A stretch of DNA of 29,858 bases, from positions 1 through 29,858 of the IMG/VR virus record IMGVR_UViG_3300025674_000250; one strand, written 5' to 3'. Shown piece by piece: positions 2,058-29,302 of the stretch. Below the pieces are notes generated by a model. It did not search any database. It saw only the letters and a list, made by a program, of their open reading frames with translations, and had not been told where the DNA came from. This stretch comes from a virus. How positions within the stretch are numbered: position 1 is the first letter of the stretch; every line of letters begins with the position of its first letter. The position numbers and the translations under genes are program-made.

Positions 2058-3023
2058 ATGAACATGATCACCAATGAGAAGCAAGTGTCGCTCCTCGAGC
2101 GCGAGGCCGCAGCGCGGCTCATGCTCGCGCAGGCGCGGCAGCTGGAGCTCCAGAATGAGCTCACCCAGTTGGAGCTGGAGGAGAAGCGGGCAGAGGCCCA
2201 GATGCGTGAGGCAGAGCGCATCAGCGCCAGCAGCTATGCTAAGCAGGGCGCCGCTGATGTCTATTATGCGTGGCGCGCCATGGGTGAGCCCCGAGGGTTG
2301 AACATGGCTCAGACGCTCCAAAACGCGCACATCATGCGCGGGGGCAAGCTGAGCGAGCACGCTGCTCTGCAGTGGGGTGATGTCGAGCGCAGCGGGCTGC
2401 TGGAAGATCTGCGGGTGGTAGAGCGTAGCGCCAATGCGGTGGTGCTCGACATCAAGCGCAAAGGGCGCAGCCCCCAGCGCATCTCTTGGACCATGGCAGA
2501 TGCGCAGCGCGCGGGCCTCGCCAACAGCAACACCTGGCGCCAGTATCCTGCTCGGATGCTGGAGGCGAGAGCTAAAACTGAGGCAGCCACGCTCATCTTC
2601 AGCGACATCACCACTGGCTCAGGCGGCAGCGGTGCCAACACCTACAGCACGGAGGAGGCCGCCTTTTTTCAGGGTGAGGATACTGATGCCCTCGCAGCGG
2701 TGGTGGGGCTCCCAGAGCTCGCGCCCGGAGAGGCCCCCAGCGCACCACCCGCGCCACAGCGCCCCAGCTCTCCCCCTGCCCCCTCTGCGCCCCCGCGCCC
2801 CTCGGCGCCCGCAGGGCCACCAGAGCACATCAAGCTGCGCCTAGAGCAGATCTTGGGTGAGCGCAAGATCCCAATGGAGACAGCCATGCTTTATTTGCGC
2901 GGGGCAGGGGTGGCGCCCCCCCGTGACTATGAGGCGCTCACCCGGCTGGTAGATGAGCATTTCAGCCTAGATGGCCCCTTCTATGAGGCCCACCCTGTGC
3001 TGCTGCCGGGGGAGGTCGAGTGA
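2058..3023 (+). CDS. RecT-like single-strand annealing protein (probable)
   Basis: 321 residues. An N-terminal coiled coil (about 10-55) precedes a central region (about 70-190) resembling RecT-type recombination proteins of phages: a GEPRGLNMAQTLQNAHIMRG segment, a KRKGRSPQRISWTMADAQRAG segment, then the conserved W-x2-YP-x2-ML-x2-RA block (WRQYPARMLEARAKTEA) and an acidic end. A Pro-rich linker (about 226-262) leads to a helical C-terminal part (about 265-321) that may bind a partner. Such proteins coat and anneal single strands during replication and end repair; no exonuclease partner is visible here. The ATG at 2058 follows GAGGAGAGG. The assignment rests on the motif pattern alone. Confidence 0.5.
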   Translation: MNMITNEKQVSLLEREAAARLMLAQARQLELQNELTQLELEEKRAEAQMREAERISASSYAKQGAADVYYAWRAMGEPRGLNMAQTLQNAHIMRGGKLSEHAALQWGDVERSGLLEDLRVVERSANAVVLDIKRKGRSPQRISWTMADAQRAGLANSNTWRQYPARMLEARAKTEAATLIFSDITTGSGGSGANTYSTEEAAFFQGEDTDALAAVVGLPELAPGEAPSAPPAPQRPSSPPAPSAPPRPSAPAGPPEHIKLRLEQILGERKIPMETAMLYLRGAGVAPPRDYEALTRLVDEHFSLDGPFYEAHPVLLPGEVE

Positions 3024-5546: not shown

Positions 5547-7661
5547 TTAGATGATGAACCAGTTAAACCCGTCAGTAGTCAGCGTGAGCGCCGCATACTG
5601 CACTGAGAGAACTTGATTAGCTGCGCCGTCAATGGTCCCCGAGGCCGGAGATATCGTGACATTTGCGGTCCCGAGGCGCTTGATCTGCGCTTTGTAGCCG
5701 CTGTTGCCCGTGACTGTCGGGAGCGTAATCACGACAGCGGCGGCGCCATTATCGACAAGGTAAATGTCCTCGAGGACCGAGGCGGCGGGATTAGAGATGG
5801 TTGAGTTGGTCCCGGAGGAGTCGGTCGTGACAGTCGGCCTCGAGCCCCCGCCAGATGCAGTAGACCAGCTCAGCTGCGCTGGATTGTTGCCGTCTGTGGT
5901 CAACAGCTGGCCAACGGTCCCCACAGAGGTGGGGAGCTTGAGCGTATAGCTCGCAGCAGCAGAGTGGGGAGGAGACTGCAGCGCGACCCCGTGAGAGTTT
6001 TGCTCACAGTTGAGAGTCACTGTGCCAGGCGTGAGCCCCACACCTGTGCCCCTGGCCACTACACTGCCAGTGCCGTCTGGCTCGAGGCCGATCGAGCCGT
6101 TAGCCGTAGAGGTGGTGATGATGCGGGCCTGCACATCCAGATCACCACCCAGCTGTGGGGTAGTGTCATCCACAACATCAGTGAGCCCTGTCTGATCAGT
6201 GAATGAGAGCTGCCCTGCTCCGTTTGTCTGGAGTACCTGCCCATTGGCTCCATCTGCCTGCGGCCAGTTGAGGCCATCCAGCACAATGCTGCCTGTGGTG
6301 TCTGGGGTGATCGCAATGTTGCCCGCTGCTGCTGACACAATCGCGTTGCCGTTCACATCCAGAGCACCACCCAACTGGGGGGTGGTGTCATCCACAACAT
6401 CAGTGAGCCCTGTCTGATCAGTGAAGCTCAGCTGCCCTGCACCATTGGTGACCAGCACTTGATTGGCAGAGCCATCTGCCTGAGGCCAGTTGAGGCCATC
6501 GAGAACAATGCTGCCCGTCGTGTCTGGCGTGATCGCAATGTTGCCCGCTGCCGCTGACACGATCGCATTGCCGTTCACGTCGAGCGCGCCACCTAGCTGC
6601 GGGGTGGTGTCATCCACAACATCTGCCAGCCCTGCTGCCTGATTGGTGAATGAGAGCTGCCCTGCTCCATCAGTGACCAGCACCTGCCCATTGGCACCAT
6701 CTGCCTGCGGCCAGTTGAGGCCATCCAGCACAATGCTGCCCGTCGTGTCTGGGGTGATCGCAATATCACCCGCTGCCGCTGACACGATCGCATTGCCATT
6801 AACGTCGAGGGCTCCACCTAGCTGCGGGGTGGTGTCATCCACAACATCAGTGAGCCCTGTCTGATCAGTGAATGAGAGCTGCCCTGCACCATTGGTGACC
6901 AGCACCTGATTGGCAGAGCCATCTGCCTGTGGCCAATTCAGGCCATCCAGCACAATGCTGCCCGTGGTGTCTGGCGTGATCGCGATATTGCCCGCAGCTG
7001 CTGACACGATCGCGTTGCCGTTCACGTCGAGCGCTCCACCCAGCTGCGGGGTGGTGTCATCCACAACAGCTGCCAATCCTGCTGCCTGGTTGGTGAATGA
7101 GAGCTGCCCCGCTCCGTTTGTCTGGAGTACCTGACCATTGGCTCCATCTGCCTGCGGCCAGTTGAGGCCATCCAGCACAATGCTGCCCGTCGTGTCTGGG
7201 GTGATCGCAATGTTGCCTGCTGCTGCTGACACGATCGCATTGCCGTTCACGTCGAGCGCGCCACCCAGCTGCGGGGTGGTATCGTCTACCACAGCTTGCA
7301 GGCCTGTCTCTGTGTTGTCGATCTTGTCGATCTTGGCGGGGTCAATCACCCCGCCCATATCAGCGTTTACAATGAGGTGATCACCAATGCTCCAGCTCTG
7401 CCCAAACTGGGTGCCCGCTACGCTGATCACATAAAAATCACCCTTGAGCGCATTGGTGAGAGCAGGGGTGCCAGTGCTCGCATCAAATGCGCCCTGATAT
7501 GTGAGTTGCCCCGTGAGGGCTGTATTTTCCCACTGCCCAGAGCCGCTGTTGTACTGCAGGATCTGGCCATTAGCCAGCACCCCCAGAGTGACATCAGTGA
7601 GCCCACCCAGAGCCGTTGCGCCACCACCACCACCACCACCACCAGAAATCATCAATGTCAT
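5547..7661 (-). CDS. Tail fibre protein with five tandem 74-75-residue repeats
   Basis: 704 residues. After a poly-Gly run (residues 7-14, a GGT tract near 7621-7645) comes a unique N-terminal part (about 15-123) with GQILQYNSGSGQWEN and GAFDAS segments typical of phage fibre proteins. Five near-identical repeats follow (about 124-495), each starting VVDDTTPQLGGALDVNGNAI and ending GAGQLSFT(N/D)Q, then a divergent sixth copy. The C-terminal 200 residues are unique and beta-rich, ending FNWFII; they contain TDGNNPAQLSW, a segment also typical of fibres. It probably trimerises into a shaft that presents the C-terminal tip. The start at 7661 has TAAGGAGCG upstream. Repeat number could vary by recombination. 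Confidence 0.8.
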   Translation of the reverse strand: MTLMISGGGGGGGGATALGGLTDVTLGVLANGQILQYNSGSGQWENTALTGQLTYQGAFDASTGTPALTNALKGDFYVISVAGTQFGQSWSIGDHLIVNADMGGVIDPAKIDKIDNTETGLQAVVDDTTPQLGGALDVNGNAIVSAAAGNIAITPDTTGSIVLDGLNWPQADGANGQVLQTNGAGQLSFTNQAAGLAAVVDDTTPQLGGALDVNGNAIVSAAAGNIAITPDTTGSIVLDGLNWPQADGSANQVLVTNGAGQLSFTDQTGLTDVVDDTTPQLGGALDVNGNAIVSAAAGDIAITPDTTGSIVLDGLNWPQADGANGQVLVTDGAGQLSFTNQAAGLADVVDDTTPQLGGALDVNGNAIVSAAAGNIAITPDTTGSIVLDGLNWPQADGSANQVLVTNGAGQLSFTDQTGLTDVVDDTTPQLGGALDVNGNAIVSAAAGNIAITPDTTGSIVLDGLNWPQADGANGQVLQTNGAGQLSFTDQTGLTDVVDDTTPQLGGDLDVQARIITTSTANGSIGLEPDGTGSVVARGTGVGLTPGTVTLNCEQNSHGVALQSPPHSAAASYTLKLPTSVGTVGQLLTTDGNNPAQLSWSTASGGGSRPTVTTDSSGTNSTISNPAASVLEDIYLVDNGAAAVVITLPTVTGNSGYKAQIKRLGTANVTISPASGTIDGAANQVLSVQYAALTLTTDGFNWFII
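6177..7292 (-). repeat. Five tandem 222-225-bp direct repeats inside the tail fibre gene
   Basis: Unit boundaries, reading leftward, are 7292-7068 (225 bp), 7067-6846 (222), 6845-6621 (225), 6620-6399 (222) and 6398-6177 (222); a divergent partial unit starts at 6176. Amino acid differences are almost confined to the last 25 residues of each unit (ANGQ/SANQ, TNQAAGLA/TDQTGLT). Two versions of this tail mix: units ending AAGLA are 75 residues and units ending TGLT are 74. Synonymous differences are present between copies, so the duplications are not all recent. Confidence 0.9.
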
Positions 7662-13751: not shown

Positions 13752-14986
13752 CAGCCCACCCCATCATGCTCAATCGTGAGGGAGAGCGGCACCCTGCGCC
13801 GCAGCATCCCCGGATAGTTGAGATCAAACTCAGACTCTAGGAGGCGCCCAATATAGCGCCCCCGCTCTGGCTGTATGGTGTAGAGGGTGCCATATCGTGA
13901 GTTGATGTAGGTGCTACCCTGCACAGCCATGGGCGCTGTGTGGCGCCTCGAGTCTCCCCATTCCCCCACATAGGTGAGGCGCTGCCCCGGTCCCGTATAT
14001 CGGATAAACCGATCACCCCAATGCTGGTACAGGTCGCGGCTGTCTGCCTCTGCATCGAGATAGAATGAGATGCGGCTGCTGGTGTAGGTGGCGAGGCGAT
14101 TGCTTACCATACCTCCACCCAGCAGGCGCCGCGCAGTGGCTACTGTGTCTGTGCTGAGCTGGTGGCGCTCCACAGGGCGGGTGGGCAGGAGCATCATGGC
14201 GCAGGGATAGCTGGCCCGCAGTCTGCTGTAGATGCTCGAGCCACCCAGCGCAGAGGGTGTCTCATTCCCTGTGAAGCCCAACAGATTGCGCAGCTTTGTG
14301 CTCTGCCATGTGAGAGCAGTGACAGAGCTAGGGTAGCTCACCACTGCGTGCCCCTCTTCATCAATCAGCCACCTGATGCTATTCAGCCCGGAGAGCCCTA
14401 GCTCTGTGGTGTCTGTATGCGAGAGAGAGAGGGTTGAGTTGACTGCATCTGCATCAGTCCCGCTGCCTGATGCGGGGTCGCGGGTGAACACGCGCAAATC
14501 CTGATATTCACCATCTGCGATCACTGTGAACGGGGCACCAGCTGATGGGGTGAGAGTGATTGACCAGGGGCCCAACACCCTGCCTCTAGTCCAATCGTTG
14601 GGCATGGTGGCCACCTCATTGGCGCCCACAGTCACAGAGCTCACAGTGGCTGCGCCTACTCCCAGATAATCAGTGCCCGCTGCATAATCCACATCAAACG
14701 CAGTGCTGCTGTGAGTGATGGTGATCAGATCATCATCACTGATCGCCACGCTCCAGCCTCCCGCTGTGGGTGAGCCTCCTGCGCTGGCATAGTACTCAAT
14801 CACATCAGTGAGGCTCTGGGTGGCAGAGTAGCCATTTAGGAAATCCAGCACATCCAGATATACTGTGTCGGGCATTGTGATCTTGATGATGGTGCTGCCT
14901 CGAGAATAGAGATTAACCTCACTCAGGTCTCGCAGGTCGCACTCTGTGAGCAGGGCAAAATTTGGCGCACTATCTGAGCTAGGCAT
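13751..14986 (-). CDS. Minor tail protein (distal tail candidate)
   Basis: 411 residues, directly after the tape measure with a TGATG junction. The mix of Thr/Ser/Tyr-rich strands, short helices (TVYLDVLDFLNGYS) and a C-terminal block (ERGRYIGRLLESEFDLNYPGMLRRRVPLSLTI) suggests a beta-domain virion protein. In siphoviruses the gene after the tape measure usually encodes the distal tail protein or its functional equivalent. The identity is inferred from gene order; the sequence itself matches no family I recognise. Confidence 0.55.
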   Translation of the reverse strand: MPSSDSAPNFALLTECDLRDLSEVNLYSRGSTIIKITMPDTVYLDVLDFLNGYSATQSLTDVIEYYASAGGSPTAGGWSVAISDDDLITITHSSTAFDVDYAAGTDYLGVGAATVSSVTVGANEVATMPNDWTRGRVLGPWSITLTPSAGAPFTVIADGEYQDLRVFTRDPASGSGTDADAVNSTLSLSHTDTTELGLSGLNSIRWLIDEEGHAVVSYPSSVTALTWQSTKLRNLLGFTGNETPSALGGSSIYSRLRASYPCAMMLLPTRPVERHQLSTDTVATARRLLGGGMVSNRLATYTSSRISFYLDAEADSRDLYQHWGDRFIRYTGPGQRLTYVGEWGDSRRHTAPMAVQGSTYINSRYGTLYTIQPERGRYIGRLLESEFDLNYPGMLRRRVPLSLTIEHDGVG

Positions 14987-17124
14987 CAGCTCCTCCTCAA
15001 TCGCACAGCACCTCTGCGCGGGCTGTTGATCGTCCTCACCACCCTATCAGCAAACGCGCGCTCTGCGGCTGCCTGTGTGTCATAAATCACAGCATTGCCC
15101 ATATTCACATTGATGGTGATAGGCGCCCTATCCTCATCATCACCCCGGGCGCCTCTAGGTGCCGCCTGTGGAGCTCCAGAGGGAGACGTGCCAGAGCGTC
15201 TGCCAGCGCCCCCACCAGAGCTCTCTCCGGGGGTGAGCGCATGACCTACACTGCCTGCCACTGCGGCAGCTGTCCCAAACGCCAGAGCAGACTGAAAATA
15301 AGCAGCAGCTGGCAGGCCCATAGCTAGAGCGATGAGCCCGCGCCCGGTAGCCATTAGGCTCTCTACTGTTGCTTGAATTGCCACCGCTGTGAGCGCCTCA
15401 CCCACAGCTGCTTTCATGCTCTCCCCCATGAATTTCGCAGAGACTGCAGAGGTGAGCACGCTCTGGCTAAACTGCTCTGCCGATTGGATGAGGGGGCCAA
15501 AATCAAACGCATCCAGCTTGGCAAATGCCGCATTTAGATCGTGCATGAGCTCTATATTTTGGGCGCTCAAATCTCGCAGCTTCTCTAGCATCTGCTCACG
15601 CTGTGCAGCCCGCTGGCGCTCAATGTCGAGCAGCTCACGCTGGCGCACTAGAGAGGCTGTCTCTCTCTGTGCATCAGTCTGCGCTAGCTGTTGAGCAGTA
15701 TTATGGCGCAGCTCAATGAGTGCTATGCGCTGCTGCTCCCCCTCCATATAGAGACGGATCCTAGCCTCCTCGAGACGTGCTAGATCCTGCAGCTCTGCCC
15801 GCTCCTGCGCCTCTCTCTGCGCTTGTGCCTGCGCAGCCATGGCGCGGCGCCTCTCTGCTGCAGCGCGCCTTAATGCCGCGCGGCGCTGCATCGCGCTCTC
15901 AATGATCAGCGTTTCTGCGAGCTCACGATCAGAGGCAAACTGCTGCTGCTGTCGAGCGCGCTGAGCCTCCAGAGCTGTGGTGCGATCATTAAAGTGCCGC
16001 GCAGTGATCGTCTGCAGCTCCAGCTGCCTGGTGAGTGCCGCTTTCTCAGACTCAAAAACCTTATTGATGCGCTCAAGCTGCGCCTGCTCTAGCGCCCGCA
16101 CCTGTGAGATGCGCTGGTGCTGTTGGCTCTGCAGCTGCCTAGTCTGAAATGCGAGCGTGCTCATGCGCGCCTGAGCCGCCTCTGCCTCTGTCTGGATTTG
16201 CAGCGCGCCTATACTGCGCAGGGTGTTGGCATTTTCCTGCAACAGCTTGGCTCTCTCGCGCTCTGCTGCCTCGATTGCAGAGCGCCCCTGCGCCTCAGTC
16301 AAACGCTCCTGCTCATTCGTGAGCTCACGCCTCGCCTTAGCTGCCTCTTGAATCAATGGGATGAGCTCAGCCTCTATCCTAGCTGCACGCTGGGTGGCCC
16401 GATTATAGGCCACCTGCGCATCATGGCTGAGCCGTCTGACCTCTAGATCCTCGAGCTGAGCGCGCCTACTCGCTGTTAGCTGTCTGTTATTCTGCAGGCG
16501 GATCCTGATCGCTGTGCGCTGCGCTTCTGCCTCCTGCTGTGCTGTTTGCAGGGCTGCAGCGGCTCTGGCCTGCTCCTTTTGAGCAAGCTCGATGCGTTTA
16601 CCAATGACACCATTGCCCTCACGCAGCAGCTGCACATACTCCGTCTGCATCTGCGCATTGGTGGCTAGCTGCATCAGGTTCTGATGCTCTGCTGCAGTTA
16701 GCTCAATATTTGCATCTGCCAACTGCTCCAGCACAGAGGTGAACTCTGCTGCACCTTTTCTGATCGCCTCTAGGCGCTCATCCAGATCATTAGTGCTGTC
16801 GATGTAGCGTTTAACCGCATAAACCACCCCCACAAACGCTGTGCCTATTGCAGCAATGGGCCCCAGCATAGAGACAAGGCCTGCGCTTGCCCCAGTTGTT
16901 GCTGCACCCATCTGAGAGATGCCAGAGGTGAGCGCGCCTACACTAGACGCAATCCCGCCCACACTGGCAGTGACCTTGTTGGAGCTCGCAGAGAGGGCTG
17001 CCCCCATTTGAGTGAAGCCACCTGCTGCGCGCTCTGCGCCCCGGCTGATGGTGTTGAGCGCCTTCTCTGCCTGCCCCGCCCCGTCTAGCTCAACCCTGAT
17101 CTCAACTGTGCCTGCTGCTGCCAT
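14986..17124 (-). CDS. Tape measure protein
   Basis: 712 residues. The N terminus (MAAAGTVEIRVELDGAGQAEKALNTISRGAE) is the standard opening of lambda-like tape measures. A hydrophobic Gly/Ala/Ser segment at about residues 45-105 is followed by a very long Ala/Gln/Arg/Glu-rich coiled coil (about 110-520), more hydrophobic helices (about 570-640), and a C-terminal ITINVNMGNAVIYDTQAAAERAF block common in this family. It sets tail length; at about 0.15 nm per residue the tail would be near 107 nm. It also provides channel-forming segments during DNA entry. The ATG at 17124 follows GAGGAGG and overlaps the end of the GT frame by 23 bases, the order seen in lambda G-GT-H. Confidence 0.9.
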   Translation of the reverse strand: MAAAGTVEIRVELDGAGQAEKALNTISRGAERAAGGFTQMGAALSASSNKVTASVGGIASSVGALTSGISQMGAATTGASAGLVSMLGPIAAIGTAFVGVVYAVKRYIDSTNDLDERLEAIRKGAAEFTSVLEQLADANIELTAAEHQNLMQLATNAQMQTEYVQLLREGNGVIGKRIELAQKEQARAAAALQTAQQEAEAQRTAIRIRLQNNRQLTASRRAQLEDLEVRRLSHDAQVAYNRATQRAARIEAELIPLIQEAAKARRELTNEQERLTEAQGRSAIEAAERERAKLLQENANTLRSIGALQIQTEAEAAQARMSTLAFQTRQLQSQQHQRISQVRALEQAQLERINKVFESEKAALTRQLELQTITARHFNDRTTALEAQRARQQQQFASDRELAETLIIESAMQRRAALRRAAAERRRAMAAQAQAQREAQERAELQDLARLEEARIRLYMEGEQQRIALIELRHNTAQQLAQTDAQRETASLVRQRELLDIERQRAAQREQMLEKLRDLSAQNIELMHDLNAAFAKLDAFDFGPLIQSAEQFSQSVLTSAVSAKFMGESMKAAVGEALTAVAIQATVESLMATGRGLIALAMGLPAAAYFQSALAFGTAAAVAGSVGHALTPGESSGGGAGRRSGTSPSGAPQAAPRGARGDDEDRAPITINVNMGNAVIYDTQAAAERAFADRVVRTINSPRRGAVRLRRS

Positions 17125-17547
17125 GGGGGGCTGCCTCCTCTGCTGCGCGTTTTCTCATTCTAGCCTGTGCTAGCATATTTTGCGCTGATAGCTCTGCGAA
17201 TAGGTCGAGCACTGCGCAGGTGGGTGCATCAAATAGGTCAGAGAGAGAGCAGAGCCCAGCTTGTTGCCGCTGATAGGCCTGCAGCAGCGGCGCCAGTCTG
17301 TTGGTATCGGCCACAGGGCAGGAGCGCACCCTCTGCTCTCCCCATCCCCCATCGCAGTCTGGAGCGATCCTATAGGCCATCAGATAGCGCCCCTGATCAT
17401 CAGAGCGCACCCATGGCAGGCCATCCTGAAACGGCCCACCACAGTTGCCCCTGCGCGCACGCAGCCCCGGGGTGCTTTGGCATTGTTCACAGCTCCAAGA
17501 CCGGGAGCCAGCGTACTGCAGCCAGACGCTGGCCCCCGCTGCTATTT
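17102..17547 (-). CDS. Tail assembly chaperone GT extension, read by -1 frameshift
   Basis: This frame is open from the slippery site at 17545-17551 to the stop at 17102 and adds 147 residues to the 168-residue upstream chaperone, giving a 315-residue fusion. The first added residues read IAAGASVWLQYAGS, then CEQC and a further Cys, a possible metal site. The frame continues through WVRSDDQGRYLMAYRIAPDC and a helical C terminus ending just inside the tape measure gene. It lies in the -1 frame relative to the upstream gene, as in the lambda G/T pair. An independent GTG start at 17410 would give 102 residues, but it has no good ribosome site and would waste about 130 bp of open frame. Confidence 0.8.
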
Positions 17548-17551
17548 TCCC
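17503..17551 (-). promoter_or_regulatory. Programmed -1 ribosomal frameshift site: slippery heptamer plus hairpin
   Basis: On the minus strand the zero-frame codons GAG GGA AAA TAG contain the heptamer G GGA AAA (17551-17545), the X XXY YYZ form; lambda uses GGGAAAG. After a 7-base spacer comes a hairpin: 5' arm GGGGGCCAGCG (17537-17527), a 13-base loop (17526-17514) and 3' arm CGCTGGCTCCC (17513-17503). That makes 11 pairs with one G-U. The zero-frame stop lies directly after the heptamer. After slippage the frame stays open for 147 codons. All three elements of a canonical -1 frameshift signal are therefore present. Confidence 0.88.
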
Positions 17552-18048
17552 TCTGGGGGGAGGGTGCTCAGCGTCTGGATATGCGCCACTAGCTCAGAGC
17601 AGAGCAGCTGCCTGTGATGATCTGGTCTAATGCGATCAACTAGCTCGAGCGGATCACCATCATGGCCCACCACCCGCACCAGCCCAGCCCGCATCATCTC
17701 ACGATAGACGCGCGCCAAATAGCCTTCATAGGAGCCTAGCGCCTCGCGCTCATCCTCTGGCAGTTTGTGCTGCCAGCGGGCTCGCTCTGTAGGATCATCC
17801 GGCTGAGCCAGCCAGAGCTGCCGCCCCAGCTCGCTCCGCTTGTACACCCCAGCTGCCACCTCTGCCGCCTCACGCTGAGAGGGGGTGAGCGCCCGCACCA
17901 CAAAACGTGTAGCACCCTCAGTCTGCAGCAGGCTCTCATCGCGGGTGCGCAGGTATGCTGCCTTGTCCTCATCACTGCCCTGCACTGCGGGATCAATGGT
18001 GGAGACGATCTCAATTTCCTGCGCGGCATCAGTGGCAAACTGAAACAT
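17542..18048 (-). CDS. Tail assembly chaperone, G-like
   Basis: 168 residues, between the tail tube and tape measure genes, the fixed place of tail assembly chaperones. It is helical and charged, with a short beta start (FQFATDAAQEIEIVSTIDPAV) and ends TLSTLPPEGK at TAG 17544-17542. The chaperone coats the tape measure and recruits tube subunits; the minority frameshift product G-GT carries the extra domain that binds the tube protein, as established for lambda. The ATG at 18048 follows the tube gene by 2 bases. Sequence similarity to lambda G itself is not obvious; the call rests on position and the frameshift signal. Confidence 0.8.
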   Translation of the reverse strand: MFQFATDAAQEIEIVSTIDPAVQGSDEDKAAYLRTRDESLLQTEGATRFVVRALTPSQREAAEVAAGVYKRSELGRQLWLAQPDDPTERARWQHKLPEDEREALGSYEGYLARVYREMMRAGLVRVVGHDGDPLELVDRIRPDHHRQLLCSELVAHIQTLSTLPPEGK

Positions 18049-18050
18049 CG

Positions 18051-19352
18051 TTAGATCCCCAGAGCTAGCCTAAATGGGCTGTTGGCTGCATCACTGCTGC
18101 CGCCATCACCTCCAAACCTAGAGGCTGAATAGGTGAGGCGCTGCTGCACGATCTCACCATCAATCTGCCTGATCTGCGGATCAACTGTGAGGTAGGCGCC
18201 TGGTAGATTGAGCGCCATGCCCTGCCCTGCGCCCACAGGTCCAGAGCCGATCAGCAGAGAGCGGATCACACCATCTCTGAAGTCATTGGCGATCGCAGTG
18301 TTGGGGGTATCCACTGTGATGTTGCACTCAACCACCACATCAGACACTTCCATATCACTCATGCCAATGAGAGAGCTGGAGCTCCCCACAGGGGTGAGAG
18401 TGTTGGTGATGGTGAGATCAAACTCACTAACTGAGAGGTCGATCTTGTCGAGCTCATCACCAGTGGGCCCTGCCACGGTGGTGCGGCTGGTGCTCGCAGT
18501 GGAGGAGAGGCGCAGATAGCAGCTGCGGAAATGCGGCGTGCTGCCCGTGAGGGTGGTGGGCTCGATAGGCCCGCTGGCAGAGCCGTGGTCATCGTAGATG
18601 TGAGCAGCCTGAAAAACGAAATCGCCCATCAGGCGCCCGCCGTCGATCGTGATGTTGAGGCTCTCCAGCTTGCACCCAAATGCGTAGCTGCGCACCCCAA
18701 CCCCATCAACGCGAAACGCAACAGAGCTGTTGACGCTGCCGCTGTTGTTGCCTCGAGCAACAAACCAGGTCTCGAGGAGGCGCACCACATCAGGAGCAGT
18801 GGTGTTGAGCGCCCTGCTGAGCTGGGGGCTGTACCCAATATCTCCTGCCCCGCCAGCATTGACGCTAGTGACGTGCGCATACTCTGCGCGCCCGTCTAGC
18901 TCGATGCCCATCAGCCCACCTAGCTTGAATGATGCGGCAGCGGTAGGGGTGAAACGATTGTCACTCACTGCAGCTGTCACTGTGTCAGAGGCAGCGCCCG
19001 GGATAGTGCGTGAGAATCCAGCACCCAGCAGGAGGCCCAGAGCAGTGGCATCATAATTGGCTGCGCTGCTGCCCAGGGTGGTGAAGTCACAGCGCACAGA
19101 GAGGGTGCCAGTGCGCCGCTGCTGGCGGGTGCCTCCCACGCTGGTGGTGTCGAGCTCTGGCGGCAGCCCGTGCGGGCCATCCCTCGCCTCAGTGCGCTCT
19201 GACACAGGGGGCTCACCCGGCACAACGATGGGGTCTCGCTCGCAGGGGATGCTGATAAACGTGAGGCCGGAGGGGCTGGGCACACCATCAGCGCCCAATG
19301 AGCCGAATGAGCTCTCCCCTACGATTGATAGAGATCTGTGAGTGACAGCCAT
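18051..19352 (-). CDS. Major tail tube protein
   Basis: 433 residues. The sequence is rich in Thr, Ser, Gly and Val with alternating strands (GTLSVRCDFTTLG, SEFDLTITNTLTPVG, VVVECNITVDTP), the character of tube proteins, and there are no long helices. It is larger than lambda V (about 250 residues) and may carry an extra surface domain or a duplication of the tube fold. Its place directly before the frameshifted chaperones and after the terminator-like gene supports the call. Start and upstream stop abut (TAAATG), with GAGG upstream. Confidence 0.72.
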   Translation of the reverse strand: MAVTHRSLSIVGESSFGSLGADGVPSPSGLTFISIPCERDPIVVPGEPPVSERTEARDGPHGLPPELDTTSVGGTRQQRRTGTLSVRCDFTTLGSSAANYDATALGLLLGAGFSRTIPGAASDTVTAAVSDNRFTPTAAASFKLGGLMGIELDGRAEYAHVTSVNAGGAGDIGYSPQLSRALNTTAPDVVRLLETWFVARGNNSGSVNSSVAFRVDGVGVRSYAFGCKLESLNITIDGGRLMGDFVFQAAHIYDDHGSASGPIEPTTLTGSTPHFRSCYLRLSSTASTSRTTVAGPTGDELDKIDLSVSEFDLTITNTLTPVGSSSSLIGMSDMEVSDVVVECNITVDTPNTAIANDFRDGVIRSLLIGSGPVGAGQGMALNLPGAYLTVDPQIRQIDGEIVQQRLTYSASRFGGDGGSSDAANSPFRLALGI

Positions 19353-23237: not shown

Positions 23238-23621
23238 TTATGCTCCCTGCTCAGAGGCGCCATCGAAGATAATGAAAATCTCCTGAGCGTCTGCAGTGGT
23301 GGTGTGATTGATGTTGGGGATCCAAGAAGCAACGCTGTATTGGCCAGCGCCTGCTGCGAAATCGATCAGCTTGCCCGCGTTGTTGACCATCAGGAGACCC
23401 TGCTCTGAGAGGTCTGCCCCAGCGATCGCCTTAGTGAGCCCGCGCACGCAGACCTCGACCACCTCACCCGCTGCCGCTGGGCGCTGTGCGATACCACAGG
23501 CGATTTCACCCTGAACTGTGCAGGGAGTGACCTTGCCAGCGGCGTCAAACTTGACCACCTGCAGCGCAGTGATGGTGGCAGCCGCCACGCATGAGATGAT
23601 GGTGCTGTTGTTATCGCTCAT
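23238..23621 (-). CDS. Head decoration protein (DUF2190-like), probable
   Basis: 127 residues, Ala/Val/Gly-rich and beta-structured, with segments such as ALQVVKFDAAGKVTPCTVQGE and GIAQRPAAAGEVVEVCVRGL that match the small capsid-stabilising proteins of many siphophages. It lies between protease/scaffold and the major capsid gene, the place of lambda D. Its start shares a base with the preceding stop. It probably trimerises on the capsid surface. The identity is inferred from composition and position. Confidence 0.65.
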   Translation of the reverse strand: MSDNNSTIISCVAAATITALQVVKFDAAGKVTPCTVQGEIACGIAQRPAAAGEVVEVCVRGLTKAIAGADLSEQGLLMVNNAGKLIDFAAGAGQYSVASWIPNINHTTTADAQEIFIIFDGASEQGA

Positions 23622-24241
23622 CAGAATCCTCCAAACGCGCTCTTGATGAGAGCGGGCTCAGTGCGTGCGAGGCGCTCATATGCCTCAGAGAAAGTAATGC
23701 TCTCAGAGCTGGCGAGCTCCTGAGCGCGCTGGGCGATCGTCGCCTGGGAGATCTCCTCTCCGCTGGCGCCATGGCCGATCTCAGAGAGAGAGACTGCGTG
23801 CTCTGCGGCACGCCGTGAGAACATCTCCCAAAAGAGGGAGTCGCCGCGCTCTGCCAGCGCCCATGCGTGCTCTGCTACATCCCGCTCTGCGGGGCTGATG
23901 CGCCCGCTGCGGAGGAGGGCACCAATCTCTGCCTCACGGCGGGTGGCGGCCTCTTTCTCTGCGAGCGCCTGAACCTGCTCAGTGAGAGCTTGAATCTGGG
24001 CAGCCTGTGCGCTGTTAGCCTGCGAGAGCTGCTCGCTCATGCGCTTGTACTCACCCATCTGCTCCTCCTCTTTGTCAGAGCTGGCCTCTGCCATCTCCTC
24101 TGCCTGCTCCTCATCCTCTGCCATCTCCTCACGGGTGGCCTTCAGACGGGCCTCGAGCTCACGCACAAGCGCATCCTTTTGCTTCAGGAGGGCCTTAGCC
24201 TGCTCGAGGTCTGCGATAGCCTCAATCTCTGCTGCATCCAT
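23621..24241 (-). CDS. Nested in-frame scaffold protein (Mu Z / lambda Nu3-like)
   Basis: Codon 320 of the protease gene is an ATG at 24241, preceded by GAGGAG (24256-24251) at a 9-base spacing. It falls exactly at the boundary between the protease domain and the acidic coiled coil. Translation from here would give a 206-residue scaffold starting MDAAEIEAIADLEQAK without the protease. In Mu (I/Z) and lambda (C/Nu3) such nested, in-frame scaffold products are established. The element is seen directly; its use is inferred by analogy. Confidence 0.65.
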   Translation of the reverse strand: MDAAEIEAIADLEQAKALLKQKDALVRELEARLKATREEMAEDEEQAEEMAEASSDKEEEQMGEYKRMSEQLSQANSAQAAQIQALTEQVQALAEKEAATRREAEIGALLRSGRISPAERDVAEHAWALAERGDSLFWEMFSRRAAEHAVSLSEIGHGASGEEISQATIAQRAQELASSESITFSEAYERLARTEPALIKSAFGGF

Positions 24242-25198
24242 CAGATTGATCTCCTCTGATAGTGTGACCCGCTCGAGCGCAGACGCTGCCTGCTGTGGGC
24301 GGGGGGTGAGGGTGACGGCTAACAGCTGAGCAGAGCCAGTGCGTTCACCGCTCTCTCTGGCGTAGACATCACCTAGGAAAAACTCAGGGGAGCTCCAGAG
24401 GGTGCCGCCAGCAGCAGCCACCACCTCAGCTCCCCGTTGATTGTAGACCGGTACAGCGATCAGCTGGCGCCCATCCTCAGAGAGCCGCAGCTCAATAATC
24501 TCACCCAGCGCACCGCTCTGCTCAGGCGTGCTCTGCCCACCGGGGGCGCTCTGGTGATTCCAGTCAATGATCACAGGATCAGAGGCGCGGCGAGCGTCGA
24601 AGACTCTCTTGATCTCAGCTAGGTGCTCTGGGGTGACATCACAGATCACATCGCCAGAGAGGCGGGATGAGACCCGGCCTGCGCTGAGGGTGACAAATGG
24701 GCGGCCCATGGTTTGGCCGTCATCCACCACCACCACCAGCCCATCAAGCTCAGCCAGCGTGATCTCATTAAATGCGCCCCGGTATGGAGTGCGCTCTGCG
24801 AGCTTCTGATCTGCTGCATCCATTTGCCTCACCAATTTCCTAGCCCATGCAAATCCAGCATCCCCACCCCAGCCCTGCCATGCCTGCCATCCTTTGCCCT
24901 GCTCTGACCAGCTGGAGCCCTCTTTGTCCACCTCATGCCGGGTGAAATACGCCAGCATCCTGCGGGCAGTCTCGGGGCTGATGGTTTTGCCATTGGATAG
25001 ATCACGCGCACGCGCGAGGCCCACAGCTGTCATGCCCCGCTGCGAGGGTGGCTTTTCAGCCCGCACCTCTAGTGCTCGAGCTGCTGCCGCACGCACCCCA
25101 TCAGGCGGAGAGAAATCGATGTGGGCATAACGCTCTGCTAGCTGCTCTGTGGCCTGCTGGCGTGAGCGGCTGCGGCGCAGCTTACGCTTGAAGCTCAT
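23621..25198 (-). CDS. Mu I-type prohead protease with N-terminal extra domain and C-terminal scaffold
   Basis: 525 residues in three parts. Residues about 30-130 form an extra domain with PSQRGMTAVGLARARDLSNG and GKGWQAWQGWGGDAGFAWA, which also occurs in other phage head proteins but has no known function. Residues about 145-305 are the protease: VIIDWNHQS gives candidate catalytic His215, TLWSSPEFF gives Ser269 or Ser270, and the domain ends LLAVTLTPRPQ, as in Mu I-like peptidases. Residues about 315-425 are an acidic Glu/Ala/Gln-rich coiled coil, the scaffold, followed by a helical tail. It cleaves scaffold and itself during head maturation. The start at 25198 overlaps the portal stop (ATGA). 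Confidence 0.85.
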   Translation of the reverse strand: MSFKRKLRRSRSRQQATEQLAERYAHIDFSPPDGVRAAAARALEVRAEKPPSQRGMTAVGLARARDLSNGKTISPETARRMLAYFTRHEVDKEGSSWSEQGKGWQAWQGWGGDAGFAWARKLVRQMDAADQKLAERTPYRGAFNEITLAELDGLVVVVDDGQTMGRPFVTLSAGRVSSRLSGDVICDVTPEHLAEIKRVFDARRASDPVIIDWNHQSAPGGQSTPEQSGALGEIIELRLSEDGRQLIAVPVYNQRGAEVVAAAGGTLWSSPEFFLGDVYARESGERTGSAQLLAVTLTPRPQQAASALERVTLSEEINLMDAAEIEAIADLEQAKALLKQKDALVRELEARLKATREEMAEDEEQAEEMAEASSDKEEEQMGEYKRMSEQLSQANSAQAAQIQALTEQVQALAEKEAATRREAEIGALLRSGRISPAERDVAEHAWALAERGDSLFWEMFSRRAAEHAVSLSEIGHGASGEEISQATIAQRAQELASSESITFSEAYERLARTEPALIKSAFGGF

Positions 25199-26616
25199 TT
25201 GCCCGCCCCCTTCATGAGCTTGCGATAGCGTTCTGCCAGCGCCAGCCCACCACCACCTGCAGGCGCAGTGGCGCTGATGCGATCGTAGAATGAGCGCGAG
25301 GCCTCTTCAGGGAGCTCGCCAGCACCAATGCGCTGCCTGATGCTGCGCTCAAGATCATCCTCTGGAGTGAGTAAGCCAAACTGCACCAGCGTGCTCAGGC
25401 TGGCGAGGCTCTCTGCGAGCTCATCAGCATCTAGGCCAGAGTGCTTGAGCACTGGCAGCTGCGCTGGGTTGACCTCTCCGAAATTCCACCTGATCAGGCG
25501 CCCAATGGTGCCCGCTGCGCGACGATCAACCCCACCCACCCTAGAGGCAATCATGTCGCAGAGATTGAGCGCGCTGCGCCTAAACACTGAGAGATGAACC
25601 TCACCCACACTGCGGGCGCCTGTATCAGTGATGCCTAGGTGTAGGAATTGAGCTAGGAAGCTCTGCGCAATCTGGTTATCGCACTCTCGGATGATGGAGA
25701 GCGCGTGGGTGCTGTCGAGCTTCTGCTCCCCATATGTCTGGAATGAAACTACAGGGTTATCAACTAGATAGGATTGCTCCTGCGCCACATATGCCTGCGC
25801 CTGAGCTGCAGCTCGATCAATCATCGTGTCGATGTCATGATCAGTGAGCCCCATCTCTTCTGCCATAGCTCGATTCACGCTGATGCGAGGGGTGGCCACT
25901 GCCCAACGCTCGACACCTACCCCAATCAGGTTGCTGGTGCGCTGCTTGAAACGCCACCACCACCAGGCTGGCCTCAGCAGCCCGCGCCCCTCAAAGTTAG
26001 AGCCCGTCTGATTGAGGGTGAGCAGGAGCAATTTATCTGCTGGGATGGGCAGCGGCTGGCGATTGCCACGGGTAGCCTGCAGCACTGCATCTAGGTTCTG
26101 CCCGTCTGCGCTCTCCCAGCGTAGGTGCGCTGAGGGCTCACGGTCTGCGAACCTATCGAGCCAGACGCGCATCTGCCCAGAGGCGCAGGGGGCCACCCGG
26201 TAGAGCTCCTCAAAATACCTGTACCCTATAGGCGCAAACTCCCACATATACGAGAGCTGATCTTCCCATGGGATGGTGATTTGCCCCGGGTAGCCGTCAA
26301 AGCCAAAGGCCTCATTGGCATACTCGCACAGGCGCTTTGAGAGCTCATCGCTCTCATCGCCAGGCTCCCAGCGCCATGCGGCCTCGAGCAAAGTCTGTTT
26401 GAGCACGCGCCAGCTGGCTGCCACGCTGGCATCAGTGGCGAGCATCTCCTCAGCCTCGCGCACCCATGATGTGCCCGTGAGCCTATGGTTTTGCTCTTTG
26501 CCGCTGATGTAGCCAGATTGCAGATAGGTGCCCGTGATCCCCATCACCCGCAGATTGGGTGTTGGTGATTGGCCTCTATATGGCAAATCCCGATTGAGGT
26601 AGCCTAGTTTGTGCAT
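25195..26616 (-). CDS. Portal protein, DUF935 (Mu gp29-like)
   Basis: 473 residues, first gene of the late operon. Family-type features include an early AEEMLATDASVAASWRVLKQTLLEAAWRWEP segment, GYRYFEELYRV (wing region), LPIPADKLLLLTLN, GRGLLRPAWWWWRFKQRT and a long DMIASRV... helical end. The dodecameric portal forms the DNA channel at the capsid vertex and docks the terminase. The C terminus ends in KLMKGAGK, overlapping the protease gene start. The ATG at 26616 follows AGGGGG at 4 bases. It has normal length for the family. Confidence 0.82.
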   Translation of the reverse strand: MHKLGYLNRDLPYRGQSPTPNLRVMGITGTYLQSGYISGKEQNHRLTGTSWVREAEEMLATDASVAASWRVLKQTLLEAAWRWEPGDESDELSKRLCEYANEAFGFDGYPGQITIPWEDQLSYMWEFAPIGYRYFEELYRVAPCASGQMRVWLDRFADREPSAHLRWESADGQNLDAVLQATRGNRQPLPIPADKLLLLTLNQTGSNFEGRGLLRPAWWWWRFKQRTSNLIGVGVERWAVATPRISVNRAMAEEMGLTDHDIDTMIDRAAAQAQAYVAQEQSYLVDNPVVSFQTYGEQKLDSTHALSIIRECDNQIAQSFLAQFLHLGITDTGARSVGEVHLSVFRRSALNLCDMIASRVGGVDRRAAGTIGRLIRWNFGEVNPAQLPVLKHSGLDADELAESLASLSTLVQFGLLTPEDDLERSIRQRIGAGELPEEASRSFYDRISATAPAGGGGLALAERYRKLMKGAGK

Positions 26617-26672: not shown

Positions 26673-28046
26673 ATGGTCAAATTGAACCCTCTACAGCTGG
26701 AGCTCCTCGAGGCCATCACCCGCCAGCAAACCATGGTGGCAGTGCGTGCAGGGTGGGGCTCAGGCAAAACCTCTGCGCTGGTGTTTGCCCTCGCATGGGT
26801 GAGCAATATGCGCCCGGGCACCAGCAGCCTTCTCATCACCGATACAGCGCAGCGCTACCGCACAGTGCTACAGCCAGAGATAGAGAAATGGCTGGGGCCT
26901 CTGGGGTGGACATGGAATCAAACTCAGGGCATCTGGAGCGATCCCGCCACGGGCTCATCAGTGTGGTGCCGTAGCTATTTCCGCCCTGGCACCAGAGATG
27001 CCAGCCATAACCCGCTCGAGGGGATCAACGCCACCAGCGGAGTGGCGCTCATTGATGAGGCCCAGACTATGACGCAGGAGGTAGCCTTTAAGGCGCTGGG
27101 GCGTCTGCGTAGCGGGCCCTCTCCTATGCTGGTGATGTGCGGCCTGCCAGTGATGGGGGCGTGGTGGGTGGAGCTCGCAGAGGATGCTGGCTGCACCCCT
27201 CTGCTGCACACCTCCTACAGCAACAGAGAGAATCTCTCTGAGGAGTGGTTTAAGGCCACAGAGCAGCTGCCACCAGAGGAGCGGGCGGCAATGATAATGA
27301 ACCAACCCGCACCACCCAGCGGGCTGGTTTACTCTGAGTTTTCAGAGGCGGAGAACATTGTGCAGGGCTGGCAATACCGGGAGAGCATGACAGCCCGTAT
27401 TGCAGTGGATTGGGGATTTAGAAAGCCCAGCGTGCTGATCATCGCGCATGATGAGGAGCTCGATGCAGACATCATCTGCGCTGAGCTGAACCCTAAAGAA
27501 GTCAGCCTGCAGGAGCTCTGCCGCATGATCCTCTCGATTGCATGGCCGCGCGCCCACAGAGCCAGCGCGCCCGGGCCTCGCATCTGGTTAGACTCTGGGT
27601 GTGGCGATAAGGCAGGCGCCGCGCGCAGTGACCGCACAGCACAGAGCACATTTAGAGAGCTGCGCTACCCTCCCCCGCATGGGCTGGGCCTGAAGCTGCG
27701 CTGGTCAACCTCCCCAGTGAAAACTGACATCATGAATGGAGTGCAGCGCCTCAAGCGGGCCATATGGGAGCGCAAATACCGCATCACTCAGGAGGTCTGG
27801 GACGCAGGGCGTAATGCCCCGGGCAACAGTCTGCGCAAGGCTATCTCTGGCTACGCATGGGACAAAAAGAAAGAGCAGCCCATTAAGAGCGGAATAGAAG
27901 ACCCGCTCGACGCCCTACGTTATGACCTGATTTGCTGGCGCTGGGATGATGGGCAGGCGCTCGAGCGCAGGGCTGCTGGAGCTCCAGCGCGCGCCCACCT
28001 CACAGCTGGGCAAAGAAAACCATGGGAGACGGGGGGCAGCTTTTGA
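26673..28046 (+). CDS. Terminase large subunit
   Basis: 457 residues. The ATPase domain has Walker A AGWGSGKT (residues 26-33) and Walker B ALIDEAQ (125-131). The nuclease domain has AVDWG (Asp246), LDSGC (Asp307) and EDPLDALRYD (Asp410/Asp413), the acidic residues expected for an RNase H-like fold. It packages DNA through the portal and cuts it. It is transcribed away from the head operon instead of leading it, and no small subunit gene is visible beside it. Start at 26673; the upstream CAGG is a weak ribosome site. It overlaps the methyltransferase gene. Confidence 0.9.
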   Translation: MVKLNPLQLELLEAITRQQTMVAVRAGWGSGKTSALVFALAWVSNMRPGTSSLLITDTAQRYRTVLQPEIEKWLGPLGWTWNQTQGIWSDPATGSSVWCRSYFRPGTRDASHNPLEGINATSGVALIDEAQTMTQEVAFKALGRLRSGPSPMLVMCGLPVMGAWWVELAEDAGCTPLLHTSYSNRENLSEEWFKATEQLPPEERAAMIMNQPAPPSGLVYSEFSEAENIVQGWQYRESMTARIAVDWGFRKPSVLIIAHDEELDADIICAELNPKEVSLQELCRMILSIAWPRAHRASAPGPRIWLDSGCGDKAGAARSDRTAQSTFRELRYPPPHGLGLKLRWSTSPVKTDIMNGVQRLKRAIWERKYRITQEVWDAGRNAPGNSLRKAISGYAWDKKKEQPIKSGIEDPLDALRYDLICWRWDDGQALERRAAGAPARAHLTAGQRKPWETGGSF

Positions 28047-29302
28047 GCGCCACAGTCATCAATGCCGACTCGATAGATCACCTGAAAACCCTGCCAGACT
28101 CTAGCATTGATGCAGTGGTCACTGATCCCCCATACGGTCTGGGCAACTGTTCCCCCCGGGCAGTGAGCGCAGCGCTCACAGCGTGGTTGGCTGGTGAAGA
28201 GTATCAGCCCAGCGGGGCTGGCTTTATGGGCAAAAGCTGGGATGCATTTGTGCCCGGGCCAGAGCTCTGGCGTGAAGTGTATCGAGTACTCAAGCCAGGG
28301 GGCCACGCTGTGATCTTCGCTGGCTCACGCACTGTAGACCTGATGGGGATCGCAGTGAGGCTGGCTGGGTTCGAGGTGAGAGATATGCTGCACTGGCTAT
28401 ATGGCAGTGGGTTCCCAAAATCTCATGATGTGAGTAAAGCGCTCGATAAGCGGGCAGGGGCTGAGCGTGAGGTAATTGGTGCAGGTGTCAGTGGGTCCAC
28501 TGCTATATGGGCGGATGGGGGCATGGGTGCCTTTGATATTACAGCCCCCGCCTCCCCTCTAGCGCAGCAGTGGTCTGGCTGGGGCACAGCCCTCAAGCCA
28601 GCGCATGAGCCGATCTTACTCTGTCGCAAGCCACTGGCTGGCTCTGTGGCAGAGAATGTGGAGCAGTGGGGGGTGGGGGGGCTCAATATTGATGGGTGTA
28701 GACTTCAGTGGGGTGAGGAGGAGCCTTATCATTATCCCAACGGGCTGGGTAAAGAGAGTAATGTTGACCCTAGCAGTATCAGGCTAGGCAGGTTGGAGGG
28801 GCAGCAGATAACAGGCGCAGAGAATGGACGCTGGCCAGCCAATATCCTCTTAGATCCCAGCGCAGGCGCAGCCCTTGATCTGCAGGCAGGCTTTGAGGCC
28901 AGCCGCTTCTTTTATGAGGGTAAGGCCAGCAGAGAGGAGCGTGAGGCAGGGCTGGTGGGGCTCGAGGCCCGCGCAGTGGGTGACGGAAGAGAGACGCCGA
29001 TAGACAACCCGTATCAGCGGGGTGAGACTAGGCGGCAAAATGTGCACCCCACAGTGAAGCCATTGGCAGTGATGCGCTGGCTCTGCAAACTGATCACCCC
29101 GCCGGGTGGTGTGATCCTAGATCCCTTCTGTGGCAGTGGCACCACTGGCTGCGCTGCTGCCCAACTGGGATTTGAGTTTCTGGGTATCGAGCGTGAGCCA
29201 GAGTATGCGGAGATTGCTCGAGCCAGGATCGCGCATTGGGGCTGTTTACCACCAGAGGAGCTAGGAGCGCGCAGGCCAGCTAAGCAGCCTACGCTGTTCT
29301 AG
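28022..29302 (+). CDS. DNA methyltransferase, DPPY type (N4/N6, beta-class order)
   Basis: 426 residues. The catalytic motif DPPYGLG is at residues 35-41 and the cofactor-binding motif DPFCGSGTTG at about 367-376, preceded by HPTVKPLAVMRWL; catalytic-first order marks a beta-class enzyme. About 200 residues between them include a likely target-recognition region. DPPY suggests N6-adenine methylation, protecting phage DNA from host restriction, possibly with a role in packaging or regulation. There is no restriction partner, so it is an orphan. A TTG at 28043 would give a 4-base overlap with the terminase stop and lies closer to a G-rich ribosome-like site than the ATG at 28022; the true start is uncertain. 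The 53 bp after it hold nothing recognisable. Confidence 0.85.
   Translation: MGDGGQLLSATVINADSIDHLKTLPDSSIDAVVTDPPYGLGNCSPRAVSAALTAWLAGEEYQPSGAGFMGKSWDAFVPGPELWREVYRVLKPGGHAVIFAGSRTVDLMGIAVRLAGFEVRDMLHWLYGSGFPKSHDVSKALDKRAGAEREVIGAGVSGSTAIWADGGMGAFDITAPASPLAQQWSGWGTALKPAHEPILLCRKPLAGSVAENVEQWGVGGLNIDGCRLQWGEEEPYHYPNGLGKESNVDPSSIRLGRLEGQQITGAENGRWPANILLDPSAGAALDLQAGFEASRFFYEGKASREEREAGLVGLEARAVGDGRETPIDNPYQRGETRRQNVHPTVKPLAVMRWLCKLITPPGGVILDPFCGSGTTGCAAAQLGFEFLGIEREPEYAEIARARIAHWGCLPPEELGARRPAKQPTLF

Follow-up and report, generated by a model that had tools for sequence, protein, structure and literature searches.

A conserved slippery heptamer and hairpin predict lambda-type −1 frameshifting in a tail gene family of uncultured phages

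In phage lambda, the tail proteins gpG and gpGT are made in a ratio of 30:1; both attach to the tape measure protein, and gpGT also binds the tube protein through its T part (PMC5009743). The question raised here is whether two overlapping frames of an uncultured phage, designated G and T, are joined by the same device. The sequence analysed is IMG/VR virus record IMGVR_UViG_3300025674_000250, and its entire stretch of 29,858 bases is called the window below. The head-tail genes of the window are located on the minus strand in the order portal/protease, scaffold, major head protein, smaller genes, a gene for a 433-aa protein, G, and a gene for a 712-aa protein. Family matches identify a Mu-like portal (PF06074) and a Mu I-like protease (PF10123) at 23621-26616 (minus strand); the window is thus a mosaic of known Mu-like head genes ahead of tail genes that lack any family match.

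Several other genes of the window could be recognised. A weakly terminase-like gene (26673-28046) adjoins a gene for an N6/N4 DNA methyltransferase (28022-29302, plus strand; PF01555, E 6.8e-32), which is oriented opposite to the head-tail genes. A RecT-like single-strand annealing protein is encoded at 2058-3023 (plus strand; phrog_561, E 4e-8). Several stretches of a 704-aa protein (5547-7661, minus strand) match a baseplate wedge/tail fibre connector PHROG; despite the presence of this baseplate-wedge-like protein, no tail sheath gene was recognised in the window.

ORF G (17542-18048, minus strand) encodes a protein of 168 aa with the C terminus ...PPEGK, which, on the basis of a family alignment, a structure model and weak fold matches, is a predicted tail assembly chaperone. 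As a query, G retrieved only four near relatives. The protein of the window and a 50-member set showed no significant match in Pfam or PHROGs, and PDB sequence searches with G and T gave nothing significant either. The structure model of G has a pLDDT of 89.5. Its best viral fold matches are weak, and both are annotated tail assembly chaperones (E 0.0097 and 0.013; probability 0.92 and 0.97, respectively). Its top match among solved structures is YqbN of B. subtilis (PDB 3klu; Z 5.0, 96 residues aligned, rmsd 5.4, 16% identity), which is likewise weak and under the usual level of significance. YqbN is a prophage-encoded chaperone-type protein. These fold scores were used as agreeing evidence only. 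With neither G nor T assignable to a family in Pfam or PHROGs and the best fold similarities still weak (E 0.0097; Z 5.0), the predicted chaperone function of G is based mainly on gene position, with the fold match in addition, and not on a sequence family.

The position of G is well defined. Immediately upstream lies the gene for the 433-aa protein (18051-19352, minus strand), by position a probable tail tube protein, a homologue of which directly precedes G in 61 of 62 relatives. Downstream, the gene for the 712-aa protein (14986-17124, minus strand) probably encodes the tape measure protein. In the relatives, the ends of this protein are conserved, its middle changes fast, hydrophobic segments are present, and its length varies from about 660 to 790 aa (complete copies, most loci), a pattern as expected for a tape measure protein. 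The start of the gene overlaps the end of T in the window and in nearly all loci, and the order tube-like gene, G, T, tape-measure-like gene is found at 61/62 loci. We infer the identities of tube and tape measure from size, position and divergence pattern.

At the end of G, the zero frame reads GAG GGA AAA TAG. It contains the slippery heptamer G_GGA_AAA (17545-17551, minus strand) in the phase X_XXY_YYZ relative to the frame of G, directly abutted by the stop codon TAG (17542-17544), just as the initial annotation had described. By itself, the heptamer is not rare, with two occurrences of GGGAAAA in the window vs. 0.8 expected. The second one (7525-7531) was rejected as a slip site, since it is not in phase, and a stop ends its −1 frame after 14 codons. 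The −1 frame at the end of G, i.e., T (17102-17545, minus strand), runs from an ATA codon at 17545 through 147 codons to a TGA codon at 17102-17104, which is located 23 nt inside the tape-measure-like gene (start at 17124). The open frame had been reported with this length and this end point, and the fusion length of 315 residues given with it is arithmetically correct (168 + 147).

Scans of viral contigs with T as the query produced at least 128 and then 234 matching stretches, and 80 loci per scan were retained. As the relatives are metagenomic, from many metagenomes, and partly near-copies, the sequence counts that follow are not counts of independent events. GGGAAAA, ending at the first codon of T, is retained without exception in the 82 distinct sequences related to the −1 frame. 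This set was chosen largely by similarity to T, and the test was therefore repeated on a second, unbiased set of loci fetched with the upstream 433-aa protein; all 27 loci that were distinct and long enough contain both T and GGGAAAA. The glycine at the slip site is encoded by GGA at every locus (10.6% of the Gly codons elsewhere in G) and the lysine always by AAA (54% of the Lys codons elsewhere in G). The residue preceding this glycine varies (E, A, S, R, V, Q), and its codon always ends in G. In the first set, each of the 62 distinct loci contains a complete −1 frame of 138-147 codons. Homologues that lack the heptamer or carry stops in the −1 frame, which the initial annotation had suggested looking for, were thus not found in these sets. 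The combination of phase, position, downstream hairpin and conservation in 82/82 relatives is beyond chance.

The hairpin (17502-17538, minus strand) begins 6 nt past the heptamer and consists of two arms (17526-17538 and 17502-17514) that form 13 bp, including one G-U pair, with a small inner extension of 3 bp. The presence of a hairpin had been noted correctly, but its dimensions had been given as a stem of 11 bp with a loop of 13 nt behind a spacer of 7 nt, which is a minor discrepancy. The 63 nt downstream of the heptamer have a folding energy of −34 kcal/mol vs. −23.2 ± 3.1 in dinucleotide shuffles (z −3.5). In 62 sequences, the mean energy of the hairpin is −22.3 kcal/mol vs. −12.7 ± 0.4 after synonymous recoding of T, and a structure scan over 500 nt showed one strong peak, right after the heptamer (mean z −2.8), the runner-up being an overlapping window (−1.2). 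Across 43 aligned sequences, the 13 pairs in the register of the window are 79% formed, as compared with 33-60% for slid registers, and compensatory changes amount to 83 double-change cells vs. 38 in shuffles. The comparison of related phages that had been proposed for the hairpin thus revealed conservation in excess of synonymous recoding, compensatory changes and shifted registers, and it argues for a functional role of the hairpin.

The pairing register itself varies among the relatives (52, 53, 54 and 55 in the numbering of the analysis), and at least nine register changes are needed on the tree of T. The main helix begins 5-9 nt past the heptamer in 59 of 62 relatives. Over T residues 1-17 of relatives L006-L085, the stem is shifted by one to three bases between clades, with an unchanged distance to the heptamer. 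The conserved element is a helix at a set distance, not a sequence. An upstream stimulator of the Shine-Dalgarno type was also considered; a weak mean signal is present in the family ~8-14 nt before the heptamer, but such a stimulator is not claimed here because the signal is absent from the window.

T has the features of a translated frame. Protein similarity among the relatives sets in precisely with the codon that follows the slip. Within the conserved Cys/Trp domain, Trp8, Trp17, Cys19, Cys22, Cys35 and Cys76 are invariant, and Cys64 and Cys110 are nearly so. For T residues 1-44, dN/dS, calculated as simple pairwise estimates, is 0.03-0.29 wherever computable, whereas the two other frames of the same bases give values from about 0.9 to 20, which points to purifying selection on T from its first codon. 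The structure model of T has a pLDDT of 91.4, and its fold comparisons gave weak, mostly helical matches in the PDB as well as one viral protein of 84 aa with 45% identity. T showed no significant match in PHROGs, either for the protein of the window or for a 50-member set, nor in Pfam for the protein of the window. Scans of genome contigs with T detected no prophage relatives, and neither G nor T gave a convincing match among 50,697 phage records.

Thus, the heptamer, its phase, the hairpin and their conservation, the selection on the −1 frame, the gene order, and the lack of usable starts in most relatives are established. These data make it highly probable that G and GT are produced from one gene by a programmed −1 ribosomal frameshift of the lambda G/GT type, as the initial annotation had proposed. 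The main competing explanation is that T is made separately, by termination at the TAG and reinitiation at or near it, on the non-standard start codon AUA or, in a few relatives, on ATG, aided by the Shine-Dalgarno-like sequence GAGGG. In support of it, 55 of 83 loci have GAGGG in front of the site. However, in the 28 other loci the GAG codon is replaced (by GCG, TCG, CGG, GTG and others), and GGGAAAA is retained. The codon at the slip is ATA in 76/82 distinct relatives and ATC in 3/82. Furthermore, the zero-frame stop directly follows the heptamer in most relatives, but it lies two codons later, without overlap, in L035, L039 and L060, and a ribosome-binding site alone explains neither the fixation of GGA AAA nor a hairpin 5-9 nt downstream. 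Start codons are also scarce: none of the 83 loci has one upstream in the open −1 frame, which is closed by a stop 2-3 codons before the slip in 55 of them. The first in-frame ATG, GTG or TTG of T is at residue 28 or later in most relatives, and only a minority has such a codon within the first ten. With starts absent or late at most loci, separate translation cannot explain the family as a whole and we regard it as very unlikely. It is possible in L043, L048 and L053, where the slip site reads GAGGGAAAATGA (5995-6004 in each) and the TGA of the zero frame shares bases with an ATG in the frame of T; in this branch, frameshifting and reinitiation are possibly mixed.

Two other explanations were considered. 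Slippage of the RNA polymerase at the A run would also join the frames, and a short run is indeed present at the site. Four A's, however, are few for a polymerase to slip on, and this mechanism would require neither a hairpin downstream nor a fixed GGG, which leaves this explanation with very little credibility. Still less probable is that the two ORFs are remnants of a decayed gene or owe their separation to a mistake in sequencing or assembly. Although a slip of one base at a run of four A's is a typical error, 82 distinct sequences obtained from many metagenomes share the arrangement, the zero-frame stop is retained and the −1 frame is under purifying selection, which together refute such an origin.

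For the programmed frameshift, the following course of events can be envisaged, in which we infer the slippage itself, its rate and the chaperone roles of the products. Most ribosomes would terminate at the TAG and release the G protein of 168 aa. A minority would be paused by the hairpin 6 nt downstream, whereupon the tRNAs on GGA and AAA would shift back by one base onto GGG and AAA, and the slipped ribosomes would continue through T to produce a GT fusion of 315 aa. A slippage rate of about a few percent is a reasonable guess, because frameshifting at 6-7% was measured for HK97-like tail-chaperone genes (PMC3711429). If the products act as in lambda, the tape measure protein encoded by the next gene would be coated by G and by the G portion of GT, the T portion would recruit the tail tube protein, and correct assembly of the tail would depend on the ratio of G to GT.

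A more far-reaching proposal, which we put forward tentatively and consider rather improbable as a whole, is that G and T form a chaperone family that took up the frameshift logic of the known ones. Its T domain would be unrelated to those described and, being rich in cysteines, might be a metal-binding recruiter of the tube protein. The hairpin would have retained its shape and a fixed distance through repeated moves of its register, and in L043, L048 and L053 the slip site would double as a stop-start overlap at which frameshifting and reinitiation coexist.

The protein family represented by G and T is large and was not described before, and its RNA signal is unusually well supported. It is one of the better-documented computational cases of a lambda-type frameshift. 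G and T extend the tail-chaperone frameshift rule to a large family of uncultured phages, and relatives of these proteins were undetectable in the phage records searched. More than 80 sequences constitute a natural data set on a bacterial-virus frameshift stimulator that evolves under compensation. Gene callers would normally give G only and overlook T; the Cys-rich T sequences are a good probe to find such phages.

The locus resembles that of lambda gpG/gpGT in its position upstream of the tape measure gene, its two overlapping frames, the −1 direction and the minority fusion, which is predicted here (PMC5009743, PMC7618472). The heptamers are of the same class, i.e., G_GGA_AAG in lambda and G_GGA_AAA here. 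In contrast to lambda, where the 30:1 ratio was measured, the frameshift in the window is predicted from sequence. Other differences are that neither G nor T could be assigned to a chaperone family of Pfam or PHROGs, that T is a conserved Cys-rich domain, and that compensatory changes preserve the hairpin throughout the family. As to the chaperones of actinobacteriophages, Microbacterium phage Bush is reported to shift to −1 at the identical GGGAAAA (PMC11749239), and the two chaperone models of Arthrobacter phage Molivia are the best fold matches of G, but sequence homology to G and T is undetectable in the phage collection. YqbN leads the solved-structure matches of G, but the similarity is weak, at 16% identity. 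Thus, the device is known from lambda G/GT, whilst the G and T proteins appear to be new within the Pfam, PHROG, PDB and phage-record scans made; what distinguishes them are the Cys-rich domain of T and a hairpin that compensates and shifts its register.
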